Source: Rubrivivax sp. (GTDB lineage: Bacteria > Pseudomonadota > Gammaproteobacteria > Burkholderiales > Burkholderiaceae_C). Taken from it: DNA of 64,000 nucleotides. Shown in pieces: positions 2,132 to 52,629 of this stretch (its first letter is position 1; each line of letters opens with the position of its first letter). The position numbers and the translations under genes were made by a program. The stretch lies in assembly GCA_020248915.1 (NCBI GenBank), contig JADCGP010000009.1, positions 62,001 to 126,000 on the forward strand, read 5' to 3'. The notes beneath the pieces are model-generated. The model ran no database searches. It was not told the origin of the DNA and worked only from the letters and a program-made list of their open reading frames with translations.

Positions 2132-3586
2132 TCACGGGCGCCAGGGGTCGGGTTCCCAGGGCCACATGGGCCGGGGGCGTCGGGCGAACGGCAGCTGAAG
2201 GATGTCGGCCACGCACACGCCCGGCGCGTCCAGCACCAGGCTGTGCGGCGAGATGCGCTCGAAGTGCGGCTTGTAGTGCTGGGCCGACTTGACGAGGATC
2301 ACGCGGGCGGCCTTCAGGTCGATGCCGAGGTCCTCGAAGAGCGACGGGCCGTAGGTCTGCTGCCGTTGCTCGGCAAGCGCCAGGTGGCCCTGGGCGAAGC
2401 GCAGCGCGACGGCGCGACCCATCGGCACGACCGTGCCGCCGCCGAGCCGGATCGCCCCCGCAGGGTCGAGCGCCGTCACCGTGACGTCCAGGTCCAGCGG
2501 CCGCCCCGACAGCGGGCAACGCTTGCCGCCGATCCGCAGCGAGAGGCGGGCGCCGACGCCGGCATCGAAGGCGTCGGCGACGGCCATCGGATCGACGTAG
2601 ATGCCTGCGACGATGCCGTCGATGCCGGCAGCGAGCAGCGCCTCGAGCACGTAGTTGGCATCGCCGGGAGACCCGCCGCCCGGGTTGTCCGGGAGGTCGG
2701 CCAGGATCAGCGGTCCGTGGGCACGGTGATCCCATGCCGCGGCCTGCGCCACGGCGTCGGCCAGCGGCGTGACCGGATCGCACCAGCCGCCGCGGCCTTC
2801 GAAGAGCTGGCGTCCGAGCCGCTCGGCGATCTCCGCGCCGGCTTCCGCGCGGTCATCCGTGATCACCAGCACGTGCGTGCCCAGCAGCGGAATGTCCGCG
2901 CGGCGGAACCCGTGCACGATGCTGATCGACAGCACGCCCGGCTCGTCGCGCTCGATGGCGCGCATGCGTTCCACGAAGGCCTTCATCGGTTCGCGCAGCG
3001 TCTGAAAGACGTCCGCCATGCGGCAGTCGAACACCGAAGTCACCGGACGAATCTCGCGCCGGGCGACCCGGATCAGCAGGTCGATGAGTTCGCGGCCGCG
3101 GCTGTCGATGTCGATGTGCGGGTTCTCGCGGTAGCACATCAGCAGGGCGTTGCGATGCATCTCCGGGCTGAGGTGCGTGTGCGGGTCGAGCAGGCAGCCG
3201 ACCGGCACGTCGGGGCCGACGATTGCGCGCACGCGGGCGAGGATGTCGCCTTCGCAGTCGTCGTAGCCCTGCGCGACCATGCCGCCGTGCATGTCGAGGG
3301 CGACGATGTCCACCGGCAGCGCATCACGAAGACGCTGCAGCAGCTCGTCGCGCAGCGCTTCGTAGGCGGACCGCACCACCGCGGCCCCGGGGTGCGCGTC
3401 GGCGTGCAGGCCGCCGACGACGTCCAGCCCGCGCGAGCGCGCGTAGCGGGCCATCGCGCTGCCGCGCTCGGGGTCGAGAATCTCCTCGCCGCGTTGCAGG
3501 CGGACGCTCGTGAAGGCCTGCAGGCCGACCGGGATCGGCGAGAACGTGTTCGTCTCGGTCAGCAGGCCGCCGAAGAACAGGCGCAT
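2132..3586 (-). CDS. M81 family (MlrC-type) metallopeptidase, paralogue 1
   Basis: A 484-residue protein of the MlrC/M81 family, named after microcystinase C, which hydrolyses linear peptide products of microcystin; most members have no known substrate. The family hallmarks are visible: the N-terminal TETNTFSP motif with Glu11, then DMHGGM (about 98-103), LDPHTH (Asp134, His136, His138) and a further NPHID histidine (157). These form a plausible metal site. A glycine-rich PDNPGGGSPGD segment and FDAGVGA loop follow in the C-terminal half. It lies last in a minus-strand run with the ATPases and thiolase-like gene, 22 bp after the latter. A second M81 gene at 9557-11002 has the same motifs. No signal peptide is apparent, so it probably acts in the cytoplasm on imported material. 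The substrate is not predictable from sequence. Confidence 0.9.
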   Translation of the reverse strand: MRLFFGGLLTETNTFSPIPVGLQAFTSVRLQRGEEILDPERGSAMARYARSRGLDVVGGLHADAHPGAAVVRSAYEALRDELLQRLRDALPVDIVALDMHGGMVAQGYDDCEGDILARVRAIVGPDVPVGCLLDPHTHLSPEMHRNALLMCYRENPHIDIDSRGRELIDLLIRVARREIRPVTSVFDCRMADVFQTLREPMKAFVERMRAIERDEPGVLSISIVHGFRRADIPLLGTHVLVITDDRAEAGAEIAERLGRQLFEGRGGWCDPVTPLADAVAQAAAWDHRAHGPLILADLPDNPGGGSPGDANYVLEALLAAGIDGIVAGIYVDPMAVADAFDAGVGARLSLRIGGKRCPLSGRPLDLDVTVTALDPAGAIRLGGGTVVPMGRAVALRFAQGHLALAEQRQQTYGPSLFEDLGIDLKAARVILVKSAQHYKPHFERISPHSLVLDAPGVCVADILQLPFARRPRPMWPWEPDPWRP

Positions 3587-9556: not shown

Positions 9557-11002
9557 ATGCGGGTGTTCACCGCCACCCTGGGCACGGAGACGAACACCTC
9601 GTCTCCCATCCCCACGGGCTGGCGCGCCTTCGAAGACACCATGCTGTGGAGGCCCGGGCAGCACCCGGACCAGCCCACCGAGGCGACCGGGCCGCTGTGG
9701 GCGTGCCGTCGGCGCGCGCGCGACAGCGGCTGGTCGGTCGTGGAGGGGACATGTGCCTATGCGATGCCGGGCGGGCCAGTGCCGGAGCCGGTGTTCGAGG
9801 CCCTGCGCGACGAGATCCTCGGGCAGCTGCGGAACGCCCTGCCGGTGGACATCGTCGCGCTGGGTCTGCATGGCGCGATGATCGCCGACCGCACCGAGGA
9901 CTGCGAGGGCGATCTGCTGCAACGGGTGCGCGAGCTCGTCGGACCCGGGGTCGCGGTGGGCGCCGAACTGGACTGCCACGCCCATCACAGCGCGCGCATG
10001 CAGGCTGCTGCCGACGTGCTGGTGTATTTCAAGGAGTACCCGCACACCGACTACGTCGAACGCGGCGAGGAACTGCTGAGCCTGCTCGAGCGCACGCGGC
10101 GCGGCGAGGTGCGTCCCGTGATGCACGCCCGTCACTGCCACATGGCAGCCTCATTCCCCACGCGTCTGCCGCCGATGAAGGACTTCGTGATGCGCATGCG
10201 CGAGCGCGAGCGGGGCGCCGTCCTGTCGGTGTCGCTGGTTCACGGCTTTGCGGGCGCCGACGTGGCCGACATGGGGGCGCAGGTGCTGGTCGTCACCGAC
10301 GGCGATGCGACGCTGGCGCGCGACGTCGCGGACGAGCTCGCGCGCGAAGTCTTCGCGTTGCGCGGTGCGCTGCGCACGACAAGACCACCGGCGGAGGAGG
10401 TGCTCGCCCATGCCCTCGGCCACCCCGGGCGCCCGGTCATCCTCGTCGACGCCGACGACAACCCTGGCGGCGGGGCTGCGGGCGACAACGTCGACGTCAT
10501 CCGGCGTCTGCTCGCCCACGGGGTGCACGGGGCCTGCGTTGGCCCGCTGTGGGATCCGCTGGCGGTGCGCATGTGCTTCGACGCCGGCGTCGGCGCCCGG
10601 CTGGCGCTGCGCATCGGCGGCAAGGTCGGCGTCCAGTCCGGCCTGCCGCTGGACGTGCAGGCCCACGTGACCGCCCTGCGCGAGCACCACGTCCAACAGG
10701 TCGGCGCCGTGGCGGCGCCGCTCGGGGACTGCGCGGCCATCGCCTTCCAGGGCATCGAGGTCGTCCTCTGCAGCGTGCGCGACCAGGCGTACGATCCGTC
10801 GTTGTTCAGCGGCCTCGGGATCGACTGCACCACGCGCCGCCTCATCGTCCTGAAGTCGGCTCAGCAGTTCCGCATCGGCTTCGATGCGGTCAGCACCCAT
10901 GTCTTCACGCTGCGGCGTCCTGCGTCGGGCGGCGCCGAGCTGCTGCGCGTGCGTCGCCCGATGTGGCCTTTCGACGAACCGACGGAGTTGCCAGAGACAT
11001 GA
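9557..11002 (+). CDS. M81 family (MlrC-type) metallopeptidase, paralogue 2
   Basis: A 481-residue paralogue of the M81 protein encoded at 2132-3586. The same motifs occur in the same order: GTETNTSSP with Glu11, LHGAM, LDCHAHH (Asp139, His141, His143), EYPHTD (His163), DNPGGGAAGD and FDAGVGARL. The start ATG is 11 bp after the receptor stop; the ribosome-binding site is weak (ACGG), so coupling to the receptor is likely. The stop overlaps the start of the amidotransferase-like gene (ATGA). Both M81 proteins end with a proline/tryptophan-rich RPMWPF(D/E) type tail, which supports recent common descent. Two non-identical copies in one locus suggest successive cleavages, or two stereochemically different bonds, in one substrate. 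Confidence 0.9.
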   Translation: MRVFTATLGTETNTSSPIPTGWRAFEDTMLWRPGQHPDQPTEATGPLWACRRRARDSGWSVVEGTCAYAMPGGPVPEPVFEALRDEILGQLRNALPVDIVALGLHGAMIADRTEDCEGDLLQRVRELVGPGVAVGAELDCHAHHSARMQAAADVLVYFKEYPHTDYVERGEELLSLLERTRRGEVRPVMHARHCHMAASFPTRLPPMKDFVMRMRERERGAVLSVSLVHGFAGADVADMGAQVLVVTDGDATLARDVADELAREVFALRGALRTTRPPAEEVLAHALGHPGRPVILVDADDNPGGGAAGDNVDVIRRLLAHGVHGACVGPLWDPLAVRMCFDAGVGARLALRIGGKVGVQSGLPLDVQAHVTALREHHVQQVGAVAAPLGDCAAIAFQGIEVVLCSVRDQAYDPSLFSGLGIDCTTRRLIVLKSAQQFRIGFDAVSTHVFTLRRPASGGAELLRVRRPMWPFDEPTELPET

Positions 11003-16291: not shown

Positions 16292-17278
16292 TCAGGCGGC
16301 CCGCGGCCGTGCGCCCATGGAGCCCGCCTTGGGCCCCCCCTTGGCAGCCCGCGCCGCGGCCCGCCCTCGCACGCCTACGTCCACCAGCAGCTCCGCCATC
16401 AGCTGCCGCACCACCTCCAGCGCCGGCGGCATGGTGCGGCGGCGCAGCGTCACCAGTCCGAAGCGCGCGGTGGCGGCCAGGGGCGGGTCGAGCGTGAGTT
16501 CCACCAGGTCGGGCGCGGCGGCGCGTATGGCCAGCAGCACGGTGTCAGTGCGGCGGGCCAGTTCCACCAGGCTCGGTATCTCGTCGCAGCGCAGCGTGGC
16601 GCAGGCGTCGGGGTGGGCGCGGGGGCCGTAGCGGTCGACCAGGATGCGTGCCACCTCGTCCGACAGCGGGGTGGTGGCCACGGGGTAGTGCAGCAGCTCG
16701 TCGATGCCGACGGGTGCGCGGGCGCGGCGGCCGGTGCGGGCGGCCAGCAACGGGTGGCCGCGGCGCACGAGGAAGGCGCCGGGCATCTCGTGCACGAAGG
16801 CGGCGTCGAGGTCGGGCGCGGGCCGCAGCGAGCGGGCGTCGAGCACCAGCGCGTCGAGCGTGCGCTCGCGCAGCGCCTGCACCAGCAGCGCGGTGCCGGC
16901 CCGCGCGATCTCGAGCCGCACGCGCGGCCGCTCGCGCGCCATCTTCACCAGCAGCGGCGTCATCAGCATGGCGCCGGGCCCCGAGCCCATGCCCACGCGC
17001 AGCACGCCTTCCTCGTGCCGGCCGCCCTGCTTGCCGCTGGCACGCAGGTCGTCGGCGGCCAGCACCAGCTCGCGGGCGCGCTCCAGCGCCTGGCGGCCGT
17101 AGGGGGTGAGCTCGCTCGCGCGGCCCACGCGGTCGAACAGGCGCTGGCCGAGCTCGTCTTCGAGCGCGCGGATGCTGCGGCTCAGCGCCGGCTGCGTGAG
17201 GTGCAGCGGCGCGGCCGAGCGCGCAAACGAGCCGGTCTGCGCCAGCGAAAGAAAGTGCCTCAGCTGCACCAGCGTCAT
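16292..17278 (-). CDS. LysR-family transcriptional regulator
   Basis: A 328-residue LysR-type regulator. The N-terminal winged helix-turn-helix is unmistakable (LRHFLSLAQTGSFARSAAPL, LTQPALSRSIRALEDELG), followed by the linker helix and a periplasmic-binding-protein-like effector domain from about residue 90 (GVLRVGMGSGPGAML). It is divergent from the Bug-BoxB chimera gene at 17478 with a 199-bp gap that holds an AATGCA-N8-TGCATT dyad. LysR genes beside tctC-type genes commonly regulate them. The C-terminal 20 residues are low-complexity alanine/arginine. The effector is unknown; an aromatic acid or tricarboxylate would fit the neighbours. Confidence 0.93.
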   Translation of the reverse strand: MTLVQLRHFLSLAQTGSFARSAAPLHLTQPALSRSIRALEDELGQRLFDRVGRASELTPYGRQALERARELVLAADDLRASGKQGGRHEEGVLRVGMGSGPGAMLMTPLLVKMARERPRVRLEIARAGTALLVQALRERTLDALVLDARSLRPAPDLDAAFVHEMPGAFLVRRGHPLLAARTGRRARAPVGIDELLHYPVATTPLSDEVARILVDRYGPRAHPDACATLRCDEIPSLVELARRTDTVLLAIRAAAPDLVELTLDPPLAATARFGLVTLRRRTMPPALEVVRQLMAELLVDVGVRGRAAARAAKGGPKAGSMGARPRAA

Positions 17279-17330
17279 GCGCGATCTCCTGTTCGGGGCC
17301 CTGGAAACGGACGAACGTCAAATTCATCGT

Positions 17331-17350
17331 AATGCAAAGAACAATGCATT
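17331..17350. promoter_or_regulatory. LysR binding-site candidate in divergent intergenic region
   Basis: An inverted repeat with arms AATGCA and TGCATT separated by eight bases, centred 62 bp upstream of the LysR gene start and about 137 bp upstream of the tctC-boxB start. The geometry fits the interrupted dyad bound by LysR-type dimers. Only the dyad is seen; regulation is inferred from position. Confidence 0.4.
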
Positions 17351-17477
17351 GAACATGCCATGGGGCTGCTCCTACATTGGGCTCGCCGGGCGCCGCGTGT
17401 GTGCTGGCTGTCCGGCAAGGTCTCGGTTTTCGCCCTCCCACTGCCCGTTTCCGGCCCCACCTTCCACGAGGTTTCCC

Positions 17478-18338
17478 ATGCCCAAGCTCGACTTCCTTCG
17501 CACGCTGGCCCTGGCGGCCGGCATGCTTCTCGGCGCCCAGGCGGCGCTGGCCCAGACGTACCCGGTCAAGCCGGTGAACCTGATGGTCCCGTACCCGGCG
17601 GGCGGCCCGTCGGACGCCATCGCGCGCATCTTCAACACGCAGCTCGGCAAGGAGCTCGGCCAGCAGGTGCTGGTGGAGAACCTGGGCGGCGTCAGCGGCG
17701 CGCTGGCGGCGCAGAAGGTGCTGGCCGCGCCGGCCGACGGCTACTACATCTTCCAGGGCTCGCCCAACGAGGTGATCCTGTCGCCGCTGGCCAATTCCGC
17801 GGTCAAGCTCAAGGCCGAGGACTTCCGCCTCGTGCACCCGGTGGCCGACGCGGTGATGGTGTTCGTCACCCGCAAGGACCTGCCGGTGTCGAGCGTGGAC
17901 GAGCTGATCGCGCTGGCGCGCAAGTCGGCCGACAAGCCGCTCACCTACGGCAGCGTGGGCATCGGCTCGCTGTACCACCTGATCCTCGAGCAGGCGCAGG
18001 CCCAGACGCGCGTGCAGCTGAACCACGTGCCCTACAAGGGCAACGCCCCGCTGCTGCAGGACATCGCCGGCGGCCAGGTGGACTTTGCGGTGCTGGTGTA
18101 CAGCGCCGCCATGGGCGCGCTGGCCGGCGTGAAGGTCTCGCCCGACGGGCGCGTGGTGAGCGAGGCGGAGTGGAACGCCAAGGTCGACGAGTGGCTGCCG
18201 AGCGGCAGCGACCGCGCCTTCGTGGCCAGCCTGATGGGCCGCTGCGTCGAGCCGGGCAAGTTCGCCAACTGGATCGCGCCGCCGGCCATCGGCATCAACC
18301 GCCAGCCGGTGAACTTCGAGTACGTGCGGTTCAACTGA
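17478..18338 (+). CDS. In-frame chimera: Bug/TctC solute-binding protein fused to BoxB C-terminus
   Basis: A 286-residue fusion. Residues 1-25 are a signal peptide (AALAQ). Residues 26 to about 216 are a typical Bug/TctC extracytoplasmic binding protein ([72 protein letters not shown]). From about residue 217 the sequence switches to the C-terminal tail of BoxB, the diiron subunit of benzoyl-CoA 2,3-epoxidase ([46 protein letters not shown]). Normal Bug proteins are about 320 residues and BoxB about 470, so roughly the last third of one and five sixths of the other are missing. BoxA follows 86 bp later, in the normal boxBA order. An in-frame deletion between a tctC gene and boxB explains it. 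Neither parent activity is likely to survive. Confidence 0.85.
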
Positions 18339-18424
18339 GCCGTCGCGGACGCGGCCGGCGCGGCACCGCCGCCCGGCCGGCCGCGGCCCGACCCGGACAC
18401 CCAGGACAGACACGGAGACGCGGC

Positions 18425-19699
18425 ATGGACCACAGCGAAGTCATCGTCATCAGGCAGCACCTGATCGACCCCGAGATCTGCATCCGCTGCAACACCTGCG
18501 AGGCGATCTGCCCGGTCAAGGCGATCACGCACGACGCCAGCAACTACGTCGTCGACGCCGAGCTGTGCAACCAGTGCATGGCCTGCATCTCGCCGTGCCC
18601 GACCGGGTCGATCGACAACTGGCGCACGGTGCCCCGCACACGCGCCTACAGCGTGACCGAGCAGCTCGGCTGGAGCGAGCTGCCGGCCGAGCTGAGCGCC
18701 GAGCAGCTGGCCGAGGCCGGCGTGGCGCCGCAGGCGCTGGAGGCCGCCGCGCCGCAGCCGCAGGCCGCGGCCAGCGCCGACGGGGCGCCGTTCCAGGCCG
18801 CGTCGTACGGCGCCACGCTGCCGCCCTGGTCGGCCGCGCATGCGTACACCAACCTGTACGGGCCCAAGGCCACCGAGAAGCACGTGGTTGCCACCGTGAC
18901 CGGCAACCACCGCGTCACGGCCGTCGGCCGCGAATACGACACGCACCACATCGTGCTCGACTTCGGCGCCACGCCGTTCCCGGTGCTGGAGGGCCAGTCG
19001 CTCGGCATCGTACCGCCCGGGGTGGACGCGAACGGCCGCCCGCACCACCCGCGGCAGTACTCGATCGCCAGCCCGCGCAACGGCGAGCGTCCGGGCTACA
19101 ACAACGTGTCGCTCACCATCAAGCGCGTGCTGGAGGACCACCAGGGCCGTCCGGTGCGCGGCGTGGCCAGCAACTACATGTGCGACCTGAAGGTGGGCGA
19201 CAAGGTGCAGGTGATCGGGCCCTTCGGCACCAGCTTCCTGATGCCCAACCACCCGCGCAGCCACGTCGTCATGATCTGCACCGGCACCGGCAGCGCGCCG
19301 ATGCGGGCCATGACGGAGTGGCGGCGTCGTCTTCGTCAGTCCGGCAAGTTCGAGGGCGGCAAGCTGATGCTGTTCTTCGGCGCGCGCACGCAGGAGGAGC
19401 TGCCCTACTTCGGCCCGCTGCAGAGCCTGCCCAAGGACTTCATCGACATCAACCTCGCGTTCAGCCGCACGCCGGGGCAGCCCAGGCGCTACGTGCAGGA
19501 CGCGATGCGCGAGCGCGCTCCCGACCTGGCGCGCCTGCTCGCCGACCCCGAGACCCATTTCTACGTCTGCGGCCTGAAGAGCATGGAAGAAGGCGTCGTG
19601 CTCGCACTGCGCGACATCGCCGCGCAGGCCGGGATGGACTGGGACAGCGTCGGCGCATCGCTCAAGCGCACCGGGCGCCTGCACCTCGAGACCTACTGA
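18425..19699 (+). CDS. boxA: Benzoyl-CoA 2,3-epoxidase reductase subunit BoxA
   Basis: The 424-residue NADPH-dependent reductase subunit of the BoxAB benzoyl-CoA epoxidase of aerobic hybrid benzoate degradation. The N-terminal domain carries two [4Fe-4S] clusters: [12 protein letters not shown] (about 18-29) and [12 protein letters not shown] (about 48-59). An alanine-rich linker leads to a ferredoxin-NADP reductase-like module with the FAD motif RQYSIASP, and the NADP-binding [10 protein letters not shown]. It appears intact. Its oxygenase partner boxB survives only as a 70-residue tail fused to the upstream Bug gene, and boxC is not in the window, so this copy is an orphan unless complete partners exist elsewhere. 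A hairpin follows the stop codon. Confidence 0.93.
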
Positions 19700-19702
19700 A
19701 GG

Positions 19703-19724
19703 TCGGGCCGCGTGCGCGGCCCGA
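19703..19724 (+). terminator. Hairpin after boxA
   Basis: A strong stem with arms TCGGGCCGCG and CGCGGCCCGA begins three bases after the boxA stop and is followed by only two thymines. It fits a terminator or mRNA-stabilising hairpin in a high-GC genome; the short T run makes termination uncertain. Confidence 0.45.
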
Positions 19725-19749
19725 TTCCGGCGGCACAAGGGCGTGGTCT

Positions 19750-19782
19750 GGGCGCGGTCAGGGCGCGGTCAGGGCGCGGTCA
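19750..19782. repeat. 11-bp tandem repeat, three copies
   Basis: The unit GGGCGCGGTCA occurs three times in tandem, and a diverged fourth copy begins directly after. The last copy contains the stop codon of the minus-strand FMN-dehydrogenase gene. Copy number change here would alter the extreme C-terminus of that protein. Confidence 0.8.
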
Positions 19783-20991
19783 GGGCGACCCGGGCGCGCC
19801 GGGTGCCGCGTCGGGGCGCCCCCGAGCCGGCACCACCAGCCCGGCCGCGACGATGTCGCTCGCCCGCGCGACGCCGGCCAGCCCCATCGTGCGGTCGAGC
19901 TCGTCGTCCAGAAGCTCGAGCACGCGCGCCACGCCGTCGTGGCCGGCCACGGCCAGGCCCCACAGCGCGGGGCGGCCCACCAGCACGGCGGCCGCGCCGA
20001 GCGCCAGCGCCTTGAACACGTCGCTGCCGCGGCGGATGCCGCCGTCCAGCAGCACGGGCACGCGGCCGGCCACGGCCTGCACCACGGCGGGCAGCGCGTG
20101 CAGGCTGGCCTGCGCGCCGTCGAGCTGGCGGCCCCCGTGGTTGGAGACCACGAGCCCGTCCACGCCTTCGGCCACCGCGCGCGCGGCATCGTCGGGGTGC
20201 AGCAGCCCCTTCACCAGCAGCGGCCCGCTCCAGTGGCGGCGCAGCGCCTGCAGGTCGGCCCAGCCCATGCCGGGGTCGAGCATGCCGGCCATGCGCCCGG
20301 CCAGGTGGGCCACCGCCTCGGGCTCGCCCGGCCGCACGTAGTTGCCGAAGGTCACGCGCGGCAGCTCGCGCCGCATTCGCCACCACCAGGCGGGGCGGCG
20401 CGCGTAGTCGAGCCACTGGCGCGGCCCGAAGCGCGGCGGGATCGCGAAGCCGTTGGCCAGGTCGCGCTCGCGCTTGCCCAGCAGCTGGTTGTCCACCGTG
20501 AGCACCAGCGCGCCATAGCCGGCGGCGCGGGCGCGGTCGGCCAGCTCGCGCGTGAAGCCGCGGTCGCGGTAGACGAACACCTGCATCCAGCGCAGCGCCG
20601 CGTGCTGCGGGCCCAGCGCGCCGGCCAGCGCCTCGAGCGTGCACACCGAGCCGTGCGACAGGCAGTACACGGTGCCGCGCGCCGCGGCTGCGCGCGCCGC
20701 CGCGATCTCGCCCTGGGGCCAGAACAGGCCCGCCAGCCCGGTGGGCCCCACCAGCACCGGACTCGCCAGCCGCTGGCCGAGCAGCGTGACCGACAGGTCG
20801 CGCGCGGCCGCGCCCTGCAGCGGGCGTGGCAGGAGGGCCCAGTCGTCGAATGCCGCCTCGTTGGCGCGCAGCGTGGCCTCGTCCTCGGCGCCGCCGTCGA
20901 TGAAGTCGAACAGCGGCCGCGGCAGCCGCGCCTGCGCCTGCGCGCGCAGCGCCTGCACGCTCCAGGCGGCACGGAGGGCGGGGGCCGGCAT
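19780..20991 (-). CDS. FMN-dependent alpha-hydroxyacid dehydrogenase/oxidase
   Basis: A 403-residue TIM-barrel flavoprotein of the lactate/glycolate/mandelate dehydrogenase family. Visible features are FDFIDGGAEDEATLRANEAAF near the N-terminus, the FMN-binding GPTGLAGLFWPQGE, the catalytic SNHGGRQLD with its histidine base, and the phosphate-binding LLDGGIRRGSDVFKALALGA. The enzyme oxidises a 2-hydroxy acid to a 2-oxo acid. It is 28 bp downstream of the RraA-like aldolase gene on the same strand, suggesting a two-gene operon for 2-hydroxy/2-oxo acid metabolism. The C-terminus runs into an 11-bp tandem repeat and is probably variable. The exact substrate cannot be told from sequence; mandelate and lactate are both possible. 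Confidence 0.92.
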   Translation of the reverse strand: MPAPALRAAWSVQALRAQAQARLPRPLFDFIDGGAEDEATLRANEAAFDDWALLPRPLQGAAARDLSVTLLGQRLASPVLVGPTGLAGLFWPQGEIAAARAAAARGTVYCLSHGSVCTLEALAGALGPQHAALRWMQVFVYRDRGFTRELADRARAAGYGALVLTVDNQLLGKRERDLANGFAIPPRFGPRQWLDYARRPAWWWRMRRELPRVTFGNYVRPGEPEAVAHLAGRMAGMLDPGMGWADLQALRRHWSGPLLVKGLLHPDDAARAVAEGVDGLVVSNHGGRQLDGAQASLHALPAVVQAVAGRVPVLLDGGIRRGSDVFKALALGAAAVLVGRPALWGLAVAGHDGVARVLELLDDELDRTMGLAGVARASDIVAAGLVVPARGRPDAAPGAPGSP

Positions 20992-22830: not shown

Positions 22831-22951
22831 AGGCAGCAGGAGGGCAGTAGGAGGGCAGTCGGAGGGCAGGCGGCGAACCGGAGGCGCCGGAGCGCGCGTG
22901 CCCTGCGCCCGCGGCCCGGCCGCCCAGGCACGAAGGAAGCCGGGCGCCCAC

Positions 22952-22999
22952 AGGCGCTCAGGCGCTCAGGCGCTCAGGCGCTCAGGCGCTCAGGCGCCC
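22952..22999. repeat. 8-bp tandem repeat between convergent genes
   Basis: The unit AGGCGCTC is repeated five times, followed by one variant copy (AGGCGCCC), ending just before the stop of the minus-strand M20 peptidase gene. A second, looser GGAGGGCAG-type repeat lies at 22838-22870 after the dehalogenase stop. The 175-bp gap between the two converging genes holds nothing else recognisable. Confidence 0.85.
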
Positions 23000-23005
23000 G
23001 GGCAC

Positions 23006-24244
23006 TCAGACGCGCAGCAGGTCCAGCAGCGTGCGCGCCACCACCTTGGTGGCGCGGCGCAGGTCGTCGAGCACGATGTGCTCGTCGGCCCGCTTGGCGT
23101 TGGACTCGAGCACGGTGCGCGGCCCGGCGCCGTAGATCACGGCCGGGATGCCGCGCTCGCTGAACAGGCGCGCGTCGGTGTACAGCGGCGTGCCCGAGGC
23201 CTCCACCGGCTCGCCGAACAGCGCGCTCGCGTGCCGGCACAGCGACTCCACCAGCGGCGCGTTGCCGGCCAGCGGCTTCATCGCGTGGGCCAGCAGCAGC
23301 CGCCGGATCTCGACCCGTGCGCCGGGCACCTGCGCCACCGCATCCTCGATCAGCCGGTGCAGCGCCGCCTCGACCTGCGCCGGGTCCTCCTCGGGGATCA
23401 TCCGGCGGTCGATCTTCAGCACCACCTTGCCGGGGACGACGTTGGTGTTGGTGCCGCCCTCGATGCGGCCGACGTTGACATAGCCGTGGCGGATGCCCTT
23501 GACCGCACTCGTATGCCGGCGCAGGCGCACGTTCTCCTCGTACAGCGCCACCAGCACGCGGGTGGCGGCCTGCAGCGCGTCGATGGCGGTGTCGGGCACC
23601 GCGGCGTGACCCATCCGGCCGTGCACGGCCACCTCCATCTGCAGGCAGCCGTTGTGCGCGGTGACGACCTGGTAGCTGAAGCCGGCCGCGATCTCGAGGT
23701 CGGGCTTCGTCAGGCCGCGGTCGAGCAGCCACTTAGGGCCGAGTTCGCCGCCGAACTCCTCGTCGTAGGTGAACAGCAGATCCACGCCGCCGGCCAGCGG
23801 CACGCCGGCGGCCTCGAGCGCGCGGGTGGCGAAGGCGTAGGTCGAGAAGTCGCTCTTGCTGACCGCGGCGGCGCGGCCGTAGAGCCGGCCGTCGACGATC
23901 TCGGCGCCGTAGGGGTCGCGCGTCCAGCCCTCGCCCGGCGGCACGACGTCGCCGTGCGCGTTGAGCGCGACGATGCGCCCGCCCGCGCCGTAGCGGCGCC
24001 GGACCACGAGGTTGGTGACCGACTGCAGCCCGTGCTGCCGCACCAGGTCGGGCGGCACCTCGTGCGCCTGGGCGTCGAAGCCGAAGGCCGCGAGCAGCTC
24101 GCGCGTGCGCAGCGCGTGCGGCGTGTTGTTGCCGGGCGGCGTGTCGGTGGGCACGCGCACCAGCTCCTGCAGGAAGCGCACCTGTTCGTCGAAGTGGGCA
24201 TCGACGAAGCGGTCGACGGCGTCGTGGGGGCCGGGCTGGCTCAT
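23006..24244 (-). CDS. M20 family metallopeptidase (ArgE/DapE/carboxypeptidase type)
   Basis: A 412-residue zinc-dependent M20 hydrolase. Visible are the N-terminal metal-binding NAHGDVVPPGEGW, the catalytic acid pair YDEEFGGE, the dimerisation domain (VHGRMGHAAVPDTAIDALQA, GGTNTNVVPGKV) and the final YGAGPRTV-ADEH region with the last metal histidine. The ATG at 24242-24244 overlaps the stop of the UraD-AllC gene (ATGA), so it is the last member of the purine operon. The family includes amidohydrolases acting on N-acyl or N-carbamoyl amino acids; within this operon it may act on a ureido or carbamoyl intermediate, or on dipeptides. The annotation stays at family level. Confidence 0.9.
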   Translation of the reverse strand: MSQPGPHDAVDRFVDAHFDEQVRFLQELVRVPTDTPPGNNTPHALRTRELLAAFGFDAQAHEVPPDLVRQHGLQSVTNLVVRRRYGAGGRIVALNAHGDVVPPGEGWTRDPYGAEIVDGRLYGRAAAVSKSDFSTYAFATRALEAAGVPLAGGVDLLFTYDEEFGGELGPKWLLDRGLTKPDLEIAAGFSYQVVTAHNGCLQMEVAVHGRMGHAAVPDTAIDALQAATRVLVALYEENVRLRRHTSAVKGIRHGYVNVGRIEGGTNTNVVPGKVVLKIDRRMIPEEDPAQVEAALHRLIEDAVAQVPGARVEIRRLLLAHAMKPLAGNAPLVESLCRHASALFGEPVEASGTPLYTDARLFSERGIPAVIYGAGPRTVLESNAKRADEHIVLDDLRRATKVVARTLLDLLRV

Positions 24245-26019
24245 GGGGTCTCCGAGGCGAGCTGCTCGAGCAGGCGCCCGAAGGCCTGCGCGCACAGGTC
24301 GATGTCGTGGCTGGTGGAGGACTCCAGCGGGTTGTGGCTGATGCCGGAGTTCTCGCCGCGGACGAAGAGCATCGCCTGCGGCATGATCTCGTGGAGCTTC
24401 ATCGCGTCGTGGCCTGCGCCGCTGGGCATCCGGTGGACCGGCAGCCCGAGCGATGCGACCACGCGTTCCCACCGCGCCTGCCACGCGGGCGCGCTCGGTG
24501 CCGCCGCGACCCGCATCGTCTCCTCGATGCCGAAGGTCAGCCCGCGGCGGTCGCAGATGTCGCGCAGGGCGCCGAGCACGTCGTCGACGCAGGCATTGCG
24601 CACCGCGTCGTCCGGCGCGCGGATGTCGAGGCTGAACCGGCAGAGCCCCGGCACGACGTTGATCGAGCCCTTGGGCACCTCGAGCATGCCGACGGTGGCC
24701 ACCAGGTCGGGGACGGCGCCGGCGCGGCGCTCGACGTGCAGGATCAGCTCGGCCGCGGCCGCCGCGGCGTCGCGCCGGCGGTCCATGGGCGTGGTCCCGG
24801 CGTGGCTGGCCGTGCCGACGATCTCGCCGACGCAGCGCACGCTGCCGTTGATGGAGGTCACCACGCCCAGCGGCAGATCCACCTCGTTGAGCACCGGACC
24901 CTGCTCGATGTGCACCTCGACGAAGCCGAGGTAGCGGCCCGGGTCGCGCCGCAGCTTCGGGATGTCCGCGATGCACAGGCCCGCGTGCTCCATCGCCTGC
25001 CGCATGGTGATGCCGTCGGCGTCGCGCTGGTCCAGCCAGGCCTCGTCGAAGCGGCCCGTCAGGGCGCCGGAGCCGAGGAAGGTGGCCTTGTAGCGCTGGC
25101 CCTCTTCCTCGGCGAAGCCCACGACCTCGATGCCGAAGGGCAGCCGGCGGCCGGCCCGCGACAGCTCGCGCACGCAGGCCATCGGCACGAGGATCCCGAG
25201 GCGCCCGTCGTACCTGCCGCCGTTGCGCACGGTGTCGTAGTGGCTGCCGGTCATCAGCCGGGGCGCCGCGGGCCGGGCCCCGTGGTAGACGCCCACCACG
25301 TTGCCCACGGCGTCGATCTCGACGTCGTCGAAGCCGCAGTCGGACTTCATCCAGTGCGCCAGCCGCTGGGCGACCGCGCGGTGCGCGTCGGTCAGGTAGG
25401 TTACCGTCAGCTCGCCGCGCTCGGCGTAGCCGGGGTCGCTGTGCGCCGCGAGGCGCTCGGCCCAGTCCCAGACCTGGTGGCCGAGCGCGGGCACGGCGGC
25501 GAACTTGTCGTCGAGCCGGATTTCCGCGATGCGATGGATGTTGCGCAGCGCCTCGGCGAACTCGAAGTCGCGCGGGTTGCGCAGCCGGCGCCTGAAGGTG
25601 TCGATGATCTGCTTCTTGCCCAGCCCGGTGCCCCGCGGCCCGCGCACGGCGAGGATGAACGGGAACGCGAACCGCGCGCCGTAGGCCGCGTTGAGCTGCT
25701 GGATCGTGGCCAGCTCCTCCGGCGTGCAGGCCGTCAGGCCCGCCTTGTCCTGCTCGTGGGTCGACTCGGCGGTCAGCGACTTGGCGATCATGGCCTTGCC
25801 GGCGAGCTCGGGGTGGGCGCGGATCAGCGCCAGCTGCGCCGCCGGCCCGGCGTCGCGCACGGCCGCCACCAGCGCGTGCTTCAGCGCGGCCAGCGTCGCG
25901 AAGGGGCGCTGCGCCCAGGCCGCCTCGGCGATCCACGGCGAGTGCTCGTAGGTGCCTTCGAGCAGGGCCGTGAAGGCGGCCTGCGTCGAGTCGTTCAGTC
26001 GATCGAGCGTCAGCGGCAT
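24241..26019 (-). CDS. Fused OHCU decarboxylase (UraD) and allantoate amidohydrolase (AllC)
   Basis: A 592-residue bifunctional enzyme of urate breakdown. Residues 1 to about 170 are 2-oxo-4-hydroxy-4-carboxy-5-ureidoimidazoline decarboxylase (EHSPWIAEAAW, catalytic-region IRAHPELAGK with His69, FPFILAVRG, then FRRRLRN). From about residue 180 the sequence is an M20/amidase-type allantoate amidohydrolase (MKSDCGFDDVEIDAVGNVVG, metal motif TGSHYDTVRNGGRYDG, FAEEEGQRY, FVEVHIEQGPVL, SHAGTTPMDRR). The first domain makes S-allantoin and the second opens allantoate; allantoinase, the intervening step, is the upstream gene. The fusion occurs in some Burkholderiales. It overlaps the M20 gene downstream and is separated from puuE by a single base. 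Confidence 0.93.
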   Translation of the reverse strand: MPLTLDRLNDSTQAAFTALLEGTYEHSPWIAEAAWAQRPFATLAALKHALVAAVRDAGPAAQLALIRAHPELAGKAMIAKSLTAESTHEQDKAGLTACTPEELATIQQLNAAYGARFAFPFILAVRGPRGTGLGKKQIIDTFRRRLRNPRDFEFAEALRNIHRIAEIRLDDKFAAVPALGHQVWDWAERLAAHSDPGYAERGELTVTYLTDAHRAVAQRLAHWMKSDCGFDDVEIDAVGNVVGVYHGARPAAPRLMTGSHYDTVRNGGRYDGRLGILVPMACVRELSRAGRRLPFGIEVVGFAEEEGQRYKATFLGSGALTGRFDEAWLDQRDADGITMRQAMEHAGLCIADIPKLRRDPGRYLGFVEVHIEQGPVLNEVDLPLGVVTSINGSVRCVGEIVGTASHAGTTPMDRRRDAAAAAAELILHVERRAGAVPDLVATVGMLEVPKGSINVVPGLCRFSLDIRAPDDAVRNACVDDVLGALRDICDRRGLTFGIEETMRVAAAPSAPAWQARWERVVASLGLPVHRMPSGAGHDAMKLHEIMPQAMLFVRGENSGISHNPLESSTSHDIDLCAQAFGRLLEQLASETP

Positions 26020-50886: not shown

Positions 50887-52629
50887 TCAGGTGCCGCAGA
50901 ACGTGCGGTAGCAGGCGGTGACCTCGGCCGGCGCGGGCTGGGCGTAGCGCGCGAGCGCGGGGTCGTCGTCGAACGGGCGGCCGACTGCGGCGAGCAGCGC
51001 CTCGAAGGGCGCCAGGTCGCCGTGGTCGGAGGCGGCGGCGAGCGCCTCCTCGACGAGGTGGTTGCGCGGCACGATGCGCGGGTTGACGGCGCGCATCCGC
51101 GCCGCGCGCGCGGCGGCGCGCTCCGGTGTCGCGGGGCCGCCGTCGTCCTTCGCGCAGCGCGCCTGCCAGCGCGCGAGCCAGGCGGCCAGGGCGGCCGGGT
51201 CGGCGAACAGCGTGGACAGGGGTGCAGCGGGTGCGGCAGAGGGCGCCGAGCCGCCCGGCGCCCCGGCCGCGGCGGCAGCCGGAGCAGCCGCCGCATCGGA
51301 CAGCGCGCGCCAGGCCTGCGTGAAGTCCACGCGCTGCGCCTGCAGCAGCGCGAGCCAGTCGTCGGCCAGCGCGGCGTCCTCGTCGTCGAGCGTGTCGTCG
51401 AACGTGGCGTCGTCGCGCTGCAGCCCGAGCTTGCGGCGCTGTCCGGCGAGCAGATGCGCCCGGTAGCGCGCGGGGAAGGTGTCCAGCACCGCGGTCACCG
51501 GGGCCACGCCGTCGTGCGGGTCGTCGGCCACCAGCGGCAGCAGCGCCTCGGCCAGCCGCGCCAGGTTCCACAGCAGGATCGGCGGCTGGTTGCCGAAGGC
51601 GTAGCGGCCGCCATGGTCGATCGAGCTGAACACGGCCTGCGGGTCGTAGGCCTCCAGGAAGGCGCAGGGGCCGTAGTCGATGGTCTCGCCGGAGATCGTG
51701 GTGTTGTCGGTGTTCATCACGCCGTGCAGGAAGCCCACGCCCATCCAGCGCGCCACCAGCGCGGCCTGCCGCTCCAGCACCGCGCCGAGGAAGGCGAGGT
51801 GGCGCTCGCGCGCGTCGGCCACGGCCTGCAGCGCGGGGTCGTGGCGCGCGATCGCGTAGGCCGCCACGCGCGCCAGGCGCTCGCGGTCGCCGCGCGCGGC
51901 GAAGAACTGGAACGTGCCCACGCGCAGGTGGCTGTCGGCCACGCGCGTGAGCACCGCGCCGGGCAGCATCCGGTCGCGCAGCACCGGCTCGCCGGTGGCC
52001 GTCACCGCGAGCGCCCGCGTGGTGGGGATGCCGAGGGCGTGCATCGCCTCGCCGAGCAGCGCCTCGCGCAGCATCGGCCCGACGGCGGCCTTGCCGTCGC
52101 CGCCGCGCGAGAACGGCGTGCGGCCGCTGCCCTTGAAGGCGATGTCGCGCCGGCGCCCGGCGCGGTCGACCTGCTCGCCCAGCAGCAGCGCGCGGCCGTC
52201 GCCCAGCTGCGGCGAGAAGCCGCCGAACTGGTGGCCGGCGTAGGCCTGCGCGACCGGCTCGCAGCCCTCGGGCAGCCGGTTGCCGGCGAACAGCTCGGCG
52301 CCGGCCTCGCCGCCCAGCGGGTCGGCGTCCAGCCCGAGCTCCGCGGCCAGCGCCCGGTTGAGGAACAGCAGCCTGGGCGCGGGCGCGCGGTCGGGCCGGC
52401 CGGGCACGCTGCAGCCCGGCAGCTCGCGGGCGTACGTGTGCTCCAGGCGCAGGCCGGCCCAGGGCGGCGGTGTGGCGCCGGGGGGCTGGGATGGCGTTGC
52501 GGCGGGGGCGGCTGCGGGAGCGCCGGGGGCGGCAGCTGCGGCGGGCGGTGCGGACGGCAGGGCGGACGGCAGGGCGGACGGCAGGGCGGACGGCAGGGCG
52601 GACGGCAGGGCGGACGGCAGGGCGGACAT
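50887..52629 (-). CDS. selO: SelO/YdiU family protein adenylyltransferase
   Basis: A 580-residue pseudokinase-fold enzyme that transfers AMP to protein hydroxyls (AMPylation). Recognisable parts are YAGHQFGGFSPQLGDGRALL (about 128-147), FKGSGRTPFSRGGDGKAAVG, the region MGVGFLHGVMNTDNTTISGE that contains the metal-binding residues, IDYGPCAFLEAY, and the conserved C-terminal CYRTFCGT with its redox cysteine. ATG 52629 makes an N-terminal extension of about 60 residues containing seven SALP repeats and alanine/proline runs, absent from usual SelO proteins. A later start is possible but no good candidate was found. It is followed on the same strand, upstream, by the TerB-like gene. Confidence 0.9.
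   Translation of the reverse strand: MSALPSALPSALPSALPSALPSALPSAPPAAAAAPGAPAAAPAATPSQPPGATPPPWAGLRLEHTYARELPGCSVPGRPDRAPAPRLLFLNRALAAELGLDADPLGGEAGAELFAGNRLPEGCEPVAQAYAGHQFGGFSPQLGDGRALLLGEQVDRAGRRRDIAFKGSGRTPFSRGGDGKAAVGPMLREALLGEAMHALGIPTTRALAVTATGEPVLRDRMLPGAVLTRVADSHLRVGTFQFFAARGDRERLARVAAYAIARHDPALQAVADARERHLAFLGAVLERQAALVARWMGVGFLHGVMNTDNTTISGETIDYGPCAFLEAYDPQAVFSSIDHGGRYAFGNQPPILLWNLARLAEALLPLVADDPHDGVAPVTAVLDTFPARYRAHLLAGQRRKLGLQRDDATFDDTLDDEDAALADDWLALLQAQRVDFTQAWRALSDAAAAPAAAAAGAPGGSAPSAAPAAPLSTLFADPAALAAWLARWQARCAKDDGGPATPERAAARAARMRAVNPRIVPRNHLVEEALAAASDHGDLAPFEALLAAVGRPFDDDPALARYAQPAPAEVTACYRTFCGT
52549..52626. repeat. 12-bp tandem repeat in the selO 5' end
   Basis: The unit GGCGGACGGCAG is repeated about six and a half times without change except in the first copy. 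Read on the minus strand it encodes Ser-Ala-Leu-Pro repeats just after the initiator methionine. As 12 bp is four codons, copy-number change keeps the frame. Confidence 0.9.

Follow-up and report, generated by a model that had tools for sequence, protein, structure and literature searches.

The open reading frame at positions 17478 to 18338 (+) of the window, by which we mean the whole 64,000-nucleotide stretch analyzed here, raises the question of how a single gene came to begin as a member of one protein family and to end as a member of another, and whether the box pathway was lost along the way. It runs without a stop through 286 amino acids. The first-pass annotation had read it as a Bug/TctC binding protein up to about residue 216, continuing as the end of benzoyl-CoA epoxidase BoxB, and profile and sequence searches confirmed this division, with the switch at about residues 212 to 216. 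The Pfam model for Bug/TctC solute-binding proteins (TctC, PF03401) matches residues 48 to 209 with an E value of 6.2e-30 and 105.1 bits, above the gathering cutoff of 27, yet it does so with profile positions 1 to 161 of 274, and the profile end beyond position 161 is missing. The NCBIfam model of BoxB (TIGR03225) matches residues 208 to 285 with positions 394 to 471 of 471, i.e., with its very end, and scores 101.8 to 102.3 bits, below the curated cutoff of 499.1 that applies to a whole BoxB. Residues 27 to 216 match the solved Bug-type protein 5oei (2qpq and 2f5x match over slightly different ranges), and residues 211 to 286, also searched as the tail alone, match residues 398 to 473 of Azoarcus BoxB (3per; E value, 9.5e-30). 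Given that the E values of both halves lie below 1e-27, a chance match is excluded.

The Bug-derived part, residues 1 to 212 (17478 to 18113, +), has a signal-peptide-like start and is a close orthologue of Bug/TctC proteins. Seventeen other members among 81 genomes of the genus (its own included) have a Bug orthologue, with an identity of 84 to 91% for the best one in each, and these matches, among those listed best first, run from near residue 1 to residue 216 or 217. The BoxB-derived C-terminal part with its stop codon (18127 to 18338, +) is 77 to 91% identical to 67 distinct BoxB tails. A tail that is simply a divergent Bug C terminus is ruled out by these BoxB matches, and the relatives' Bug genes continue as (D/E)QG where they were inspected. 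Sequence comparison thus confirms the frame as an in-frame Bug-BoxB chimera, made by one join, in which the C-terminal third of the Bug protein has been replaced. Its last ∼70 residues, the following spacer, and boxA resemble the end of a boxCBA operon.

To place the join, we compared the region around it with distinct windows of relatives from both families. Between the two parts lies a 13-nt sequence common to both parental families, GGCGCGCTGGCCG (18114 to 18126, +), which codes for G-A-L-A plus one base of the next codon. Exact matches to it occur in 16/35 Bug and 7/68 BoxB windows, and allowing one mismatch adds 13 and 17 windows, respectively. The flanking bases mark its limits and show a sharp switch: base 18113 is of the Bug type (G in 35/35 Bug and 0/68 BoxB windows), and base 18127 is of the BoxB type (G in 0/35 Bug and 66/68 BoxB windows). 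The junction can therefore be placed inside 18114 to 18126, which is finer than the earlier estimate of about residue 216, or positions 18080 to 18180. Bug orthologues read YSAAM-GALA-(D/E)QG at this place, with small variants, and the join kept the frame because Bug and BoxB share their reading frame over G-A-L-A. In 400,000 random joins between a Bug gene (L083) and the boxB of contig C12 of the same assembly, a common stretch of at least 13 nt appeared at a rate of 5e-6. These data fit recombination at a short common sequence. Since the true parents are gone, the overlap of 13 nt is taken from relatives, and we infer from these relatives that the lost parents carried the exact 13-mer; the mechanism, the order of events, and the inertness of the product that we propose below are of the same kind.

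The explanation that we favor, and consider fairly probable, is that a Bug/TctC gene and a second boxB copy recombined at this common 13-nt sequence, leaving a probably inert chimera and an intact second boxA, with the pathway still encoded by the box cluster on contig C12. According to this scheme, recombination at the 13-mer present in both genes would have created the in-frame chimera, and the same event or series of events would have removed the Bug gene's end along with both of its partner genes, the greater part of the second boxB and, if one existed, a second boxC. The second boxA would have been left intact behind the Bug start, and the C12 cluster would maintain the pathway. A single deletion, if that is what happened, would have begun in the Bug gene, taken out its partners, and ended within a second box operon; alternatively, an imported box fragment may have been joined at the 13-mer. 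That only a minority of BoxB sequences contain the 13-mer exactly (the 7 of 68 windows mentioned above) counts against the favored explanation.

A join seen once may also be an artefact of assembly or amplification, in which two loci, both real, became fused through a short sequence that they share. The assembly is a draft of 54 contigs (rated 99.01% complete, with 0 contamination), the chimera is found in this assembly alone among the genomes searched, and template switching in amplification also uses short homologies. However, the common stretch is only about 13 nt long, as judged by the flanking bases of both families, which is shorter than usual assembly word sizes, and the 226 kb of contig read contain no N. 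Moreover, two intact loci should have left their other halves elsewhere, and no close copies of these were found in the assembly. The best match there to the Bug C terminus is 33% identical and none exceeds 37%. The best match to the M20 gene that follows Bug in relatives is 58%, versus at least 77% among the genes of 16 relatives, and that to the D-amino-acid dehydrogenase is 42%, versus at least 80% among 16 relatives. A second boxC was likewise not found in the assembly, which holds the C12 copy alone. The absence of these halves suggests that sequence was truly lost rather than that two intact loci were joined falsely, and we regard an artefact as unlikely.

No further case of a Bug-BoxB fusion appeared in the 81 genomes of the genus, with up to 30 candidates scored per genome, or among the matches listed from named genomes (80 loci). 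A family search, run on 399 genomes taken from a larger set with 6 candidates scored per genome, gave matches in 22 genomes (its own included, and some shared with the genus search) and no second case; every row other than its own also stops at residue 216 or 217. Two kinds of candidates were examined and rejected. Listed loci matching from residue 110 to 196 into the tail are ordinary BoxB with an AFxRxIG start (in the rows inspected, with L142 left out), and Bug loci matching up to residue 240 to 245 continue as Bug in the rows inspected. We have therefore set aside the notion of a lineage-wide fusion protein, the chimera being seen in this genome alone among those searched. The literature searched, as judged from its listings, yielded no printed mention of a Bug-BoxB fusion.

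We fetched the surroundings of the Bug orthologue at one place per genome, giving 17 loci (G009 has a further place, at 81%, that was left out). In 16 of them Bug is followed on its strand by a gene for a protein of 394 to 420 amino acids, L060 being the exception; these 16 genes are 77 to 94% alike, and both that were scanned (L048 and L050) are M20 amidohydrolases by profile. A D-amino-acid dehydrogenase-like gene then follows in 16/17 loci (80 to 95% alike), the exception in this count being L052, which reaches a contig end. Both the M20 amidohydrolase and the dehydrogenase are missing after the chimera. A LysR gene with 61 to 79% identity adjoins Bug in 16 of these loci (L013 to L029), and none was found in L021. 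No match to boxA, boxB, or boxC was obtained in the 17 Bug loci of relatives (tblastn, E value of 1e-10), and in the box loci that were fetched the box genes are grouped together, mostly behind a boxR-like gene. This ancestral order, in which Bug and box genes would be neighbors, is thus not seen, which also counts against the favored explanation. The first-pass annotation had proposed a single in-frame deletion; one in-frame join stands, but the deletion part does not follow from the relatives, since it needs an earlier arrangement that none of the 17 loci displays. As a single join inside a short stretch that the two families share, the chimera is like the deletions and fusions that arise at short direct repeats by illegitimate recombination; it differs from such deletions in that the ancestral neighborhood of both repeats is absent from the relatives' loci examined.

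Downstream, the claim that boxA is intact 86 bp 3' of the chimera stop was borne out. This second boxA (18425 to 19699, +; 424 amino acids) scores 742.5 bits against TIGR03224, versus a cutoff of 459.2, and departs at none of the 151 columns that are otherwise invariant among 69 relatives, a weak test given that the median relative likewise has 0 departures. The 86-bp spacer (18339 to 18424, +) is inside the range found between boxB and boxA of relatives: the distance from the boxB stop to the codon of the BoxA motif (K/R)QHLIDPE is 113 nt here versus 36 to 178 nt in 11 measurable loci among 19 tried. A boxA match at an E value of 1e-150 is present in 60 of the 81 genus genomes, and two full-length copies occur only in this one. 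Two box copies within one genome are known as such (PMC6449761). In a BoxA tree of 70 rows, the two copies of this genome group weakly (91/32, bootstrap not settled), and at fourfold sites each is the nearest of 69 to the other. This fits an old duplication in this lineage as the source of the second box piece, but shared codon bias may explain the likeness instead, and the piece may also have come by transfer. A partial boxA, the second in its genome, is interrupted by one in-frame TGA in a relative, at about positions 239 to 1141 of locus L209 (G069:C157), so other genus members may likewise carry second box copies that are decaying.

The intactness of boxA could also mean that the gene itself is the useful product, captured behind a LysR-controlled Bug promoter, with the chimera serving as a translated leader. 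A LysR-type regulator gene (16292 to 17278, −; Pfam HTH_1 and LysR_substrate) is indeed divergent from the chimera, in the position that it has in 16 of the 17 relatives' loci, and the score and conserved columns of boxA agree with this idea as well. On the other hand, contig C12 already has a boxA, and the column test is weak for the reason given above; a sigma-70 consensus scan of 17200 to 19900 found 0 sites with 0.0 expected and is hence uninformative. We consider promoter capture improbable, somewhat more so than an artefact.

The rest of the genome bears on the favored explanation through another contig, C12, on which boxR, boxC, boxB, boxA, an enoyl-CoA hydratase-like gene, and a 3-hydroxyacyl-CoA dehydrogenase gene stand in their customary order. 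Its boxC, boxB, and boxA score above their equivalog cutoffs, and the hydratase below the cutoffs of its best models. The regulator is matched by the model "anaerobic benzoate catabolism transcriptional regulator," which we take to be boxR. A check for other copies of boxB and boxC, as the first-pass annotation had recommended, gave one full-length boxB (914.8 bits) and one boxC in the genome, both on C12. The annotation had also expected the fusion to disable the box pathway; given the complete boxR-boxC-boxB-boxA cluster on C12, pathway loss is not supported, and judged by gene content the pathway is probably kept. The chimera locus itself differs from a boxCBA operon in having neither boxC nor boxR nor the diiron core of BoxB, the full set being on C12.

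What the chimera protein may do can be approached from its two parts. At its N terminus is what we take, judging by eye, to be a Sec-like signal motif, and export of the BoxB tail from such a start is plausible. Neither part shows obvious decay. No departure was found at the 96 invariant columns of the Bug part (37 relatives) or at the 33 of the BoxB tail (67 relatives); because the median relative also has 0 departures in both cases, these tests say only that the parts are not visibly rotten. The pN/pS values lie within the relatives' range, ranking 9th of 38 for the Bug part and 12th of 68 for the tail, counted from the highest. This lack of decay fits a recent event but also retained function, and in the latter sense it counts against the favored explanation. 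The diiron ligands of BoxB are Glu120, Glu150, His153, Asp211, Glu240, and His243 in Azoarcus numbering (PMC5489048). All of them precede the retained part (398 to 473 of 3per), so the chimera has none. With every BoxB iron ligand gone and the final third of the Bug profile missing, the chimera protein is probably inert.

An opposite reading is that the chimera is a working exported protein which gained a new role from its BoxB tail. The open frame, the kept residues in both halves, and the signal-like start speak for it, and the absence of any catalytic ligand from the tail and of the chimera from all other genomes searched speak against it. Two AlphaFold2 models, with mean pLDDT values of 49.7 and 54.1 and values below 50 from residue 248 onward in both, point in the same negative direction but weakly: their inputs were shallow alignments without a control, the first with misplaced Bug rows and the second without BoxB rows, and the models were not used as fold evidence. 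We hold a working protein to be very unlikely. Equally slim are the chances of the broader scenario in which selection kept the join, with a LysR/Bug promoter driving the second boxA together with a stable exported Bug-BoxB chimera. If it were true, a benzoyl-CoA epoxidase reductase would answer to a signal other than that of the BoxR-controlled cluster. Most likely, the chimera is instead a unique, recent, nonfunctional scar beside an intact second boxA.

The chimera thus looks like a real gene whose junction is clear, and among the genomes searched it occurs in this one only. It is ordinary in kind, a genomic scar in one draft genome without pathway loss by gene content. It nevertheless offers a clean case in which a chance codon agreement (G-A-L-A) between unrelated families lets a join at a short repeat keep the frame, and it illustrates the origin of chimeric genes. 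It is also an annotation hazard: naming the chimera by either half would be wrong, and the pathway could wrongly be called broken.

The right-hand neighbor of boxA is an FMN-dependent dehydrogenase-family gene (19780 to 20991, −; Pfam FMN_dh), which is found with an RraA-like partner in other surroundings in G077, G039, and G040. No mobile elements were found at the edges among ten neighboring genes scanned against Pfam, and nearby repeats were rejected as fragment borders, as those found do not flank the fragment. In the stretch from the boxA stop to where this next gene ends, positions 19738 to 19781 contain head-to-tail copies of an 11-nt unit, and a run of the 8-nt repeat GCGCTCAG lies between two genes at 22946 to 22993. 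A second two-part protein is encoded nearby at 24241 to 26019, where a single frame combines an OHCU decarboxylase domain with an M20 peptidase domain. Two M81/MlrC-family genes (Pfam), at 2132 to 3586 and 9557 to 11002, share one neighborhood. Lastly, the predicted start of a SelO-family protein (Pfam) at 50887 to 52629 contains a run of ALPS repeats (MSALPSALPSALPS...), and its start codon may have been placed too far upstream.
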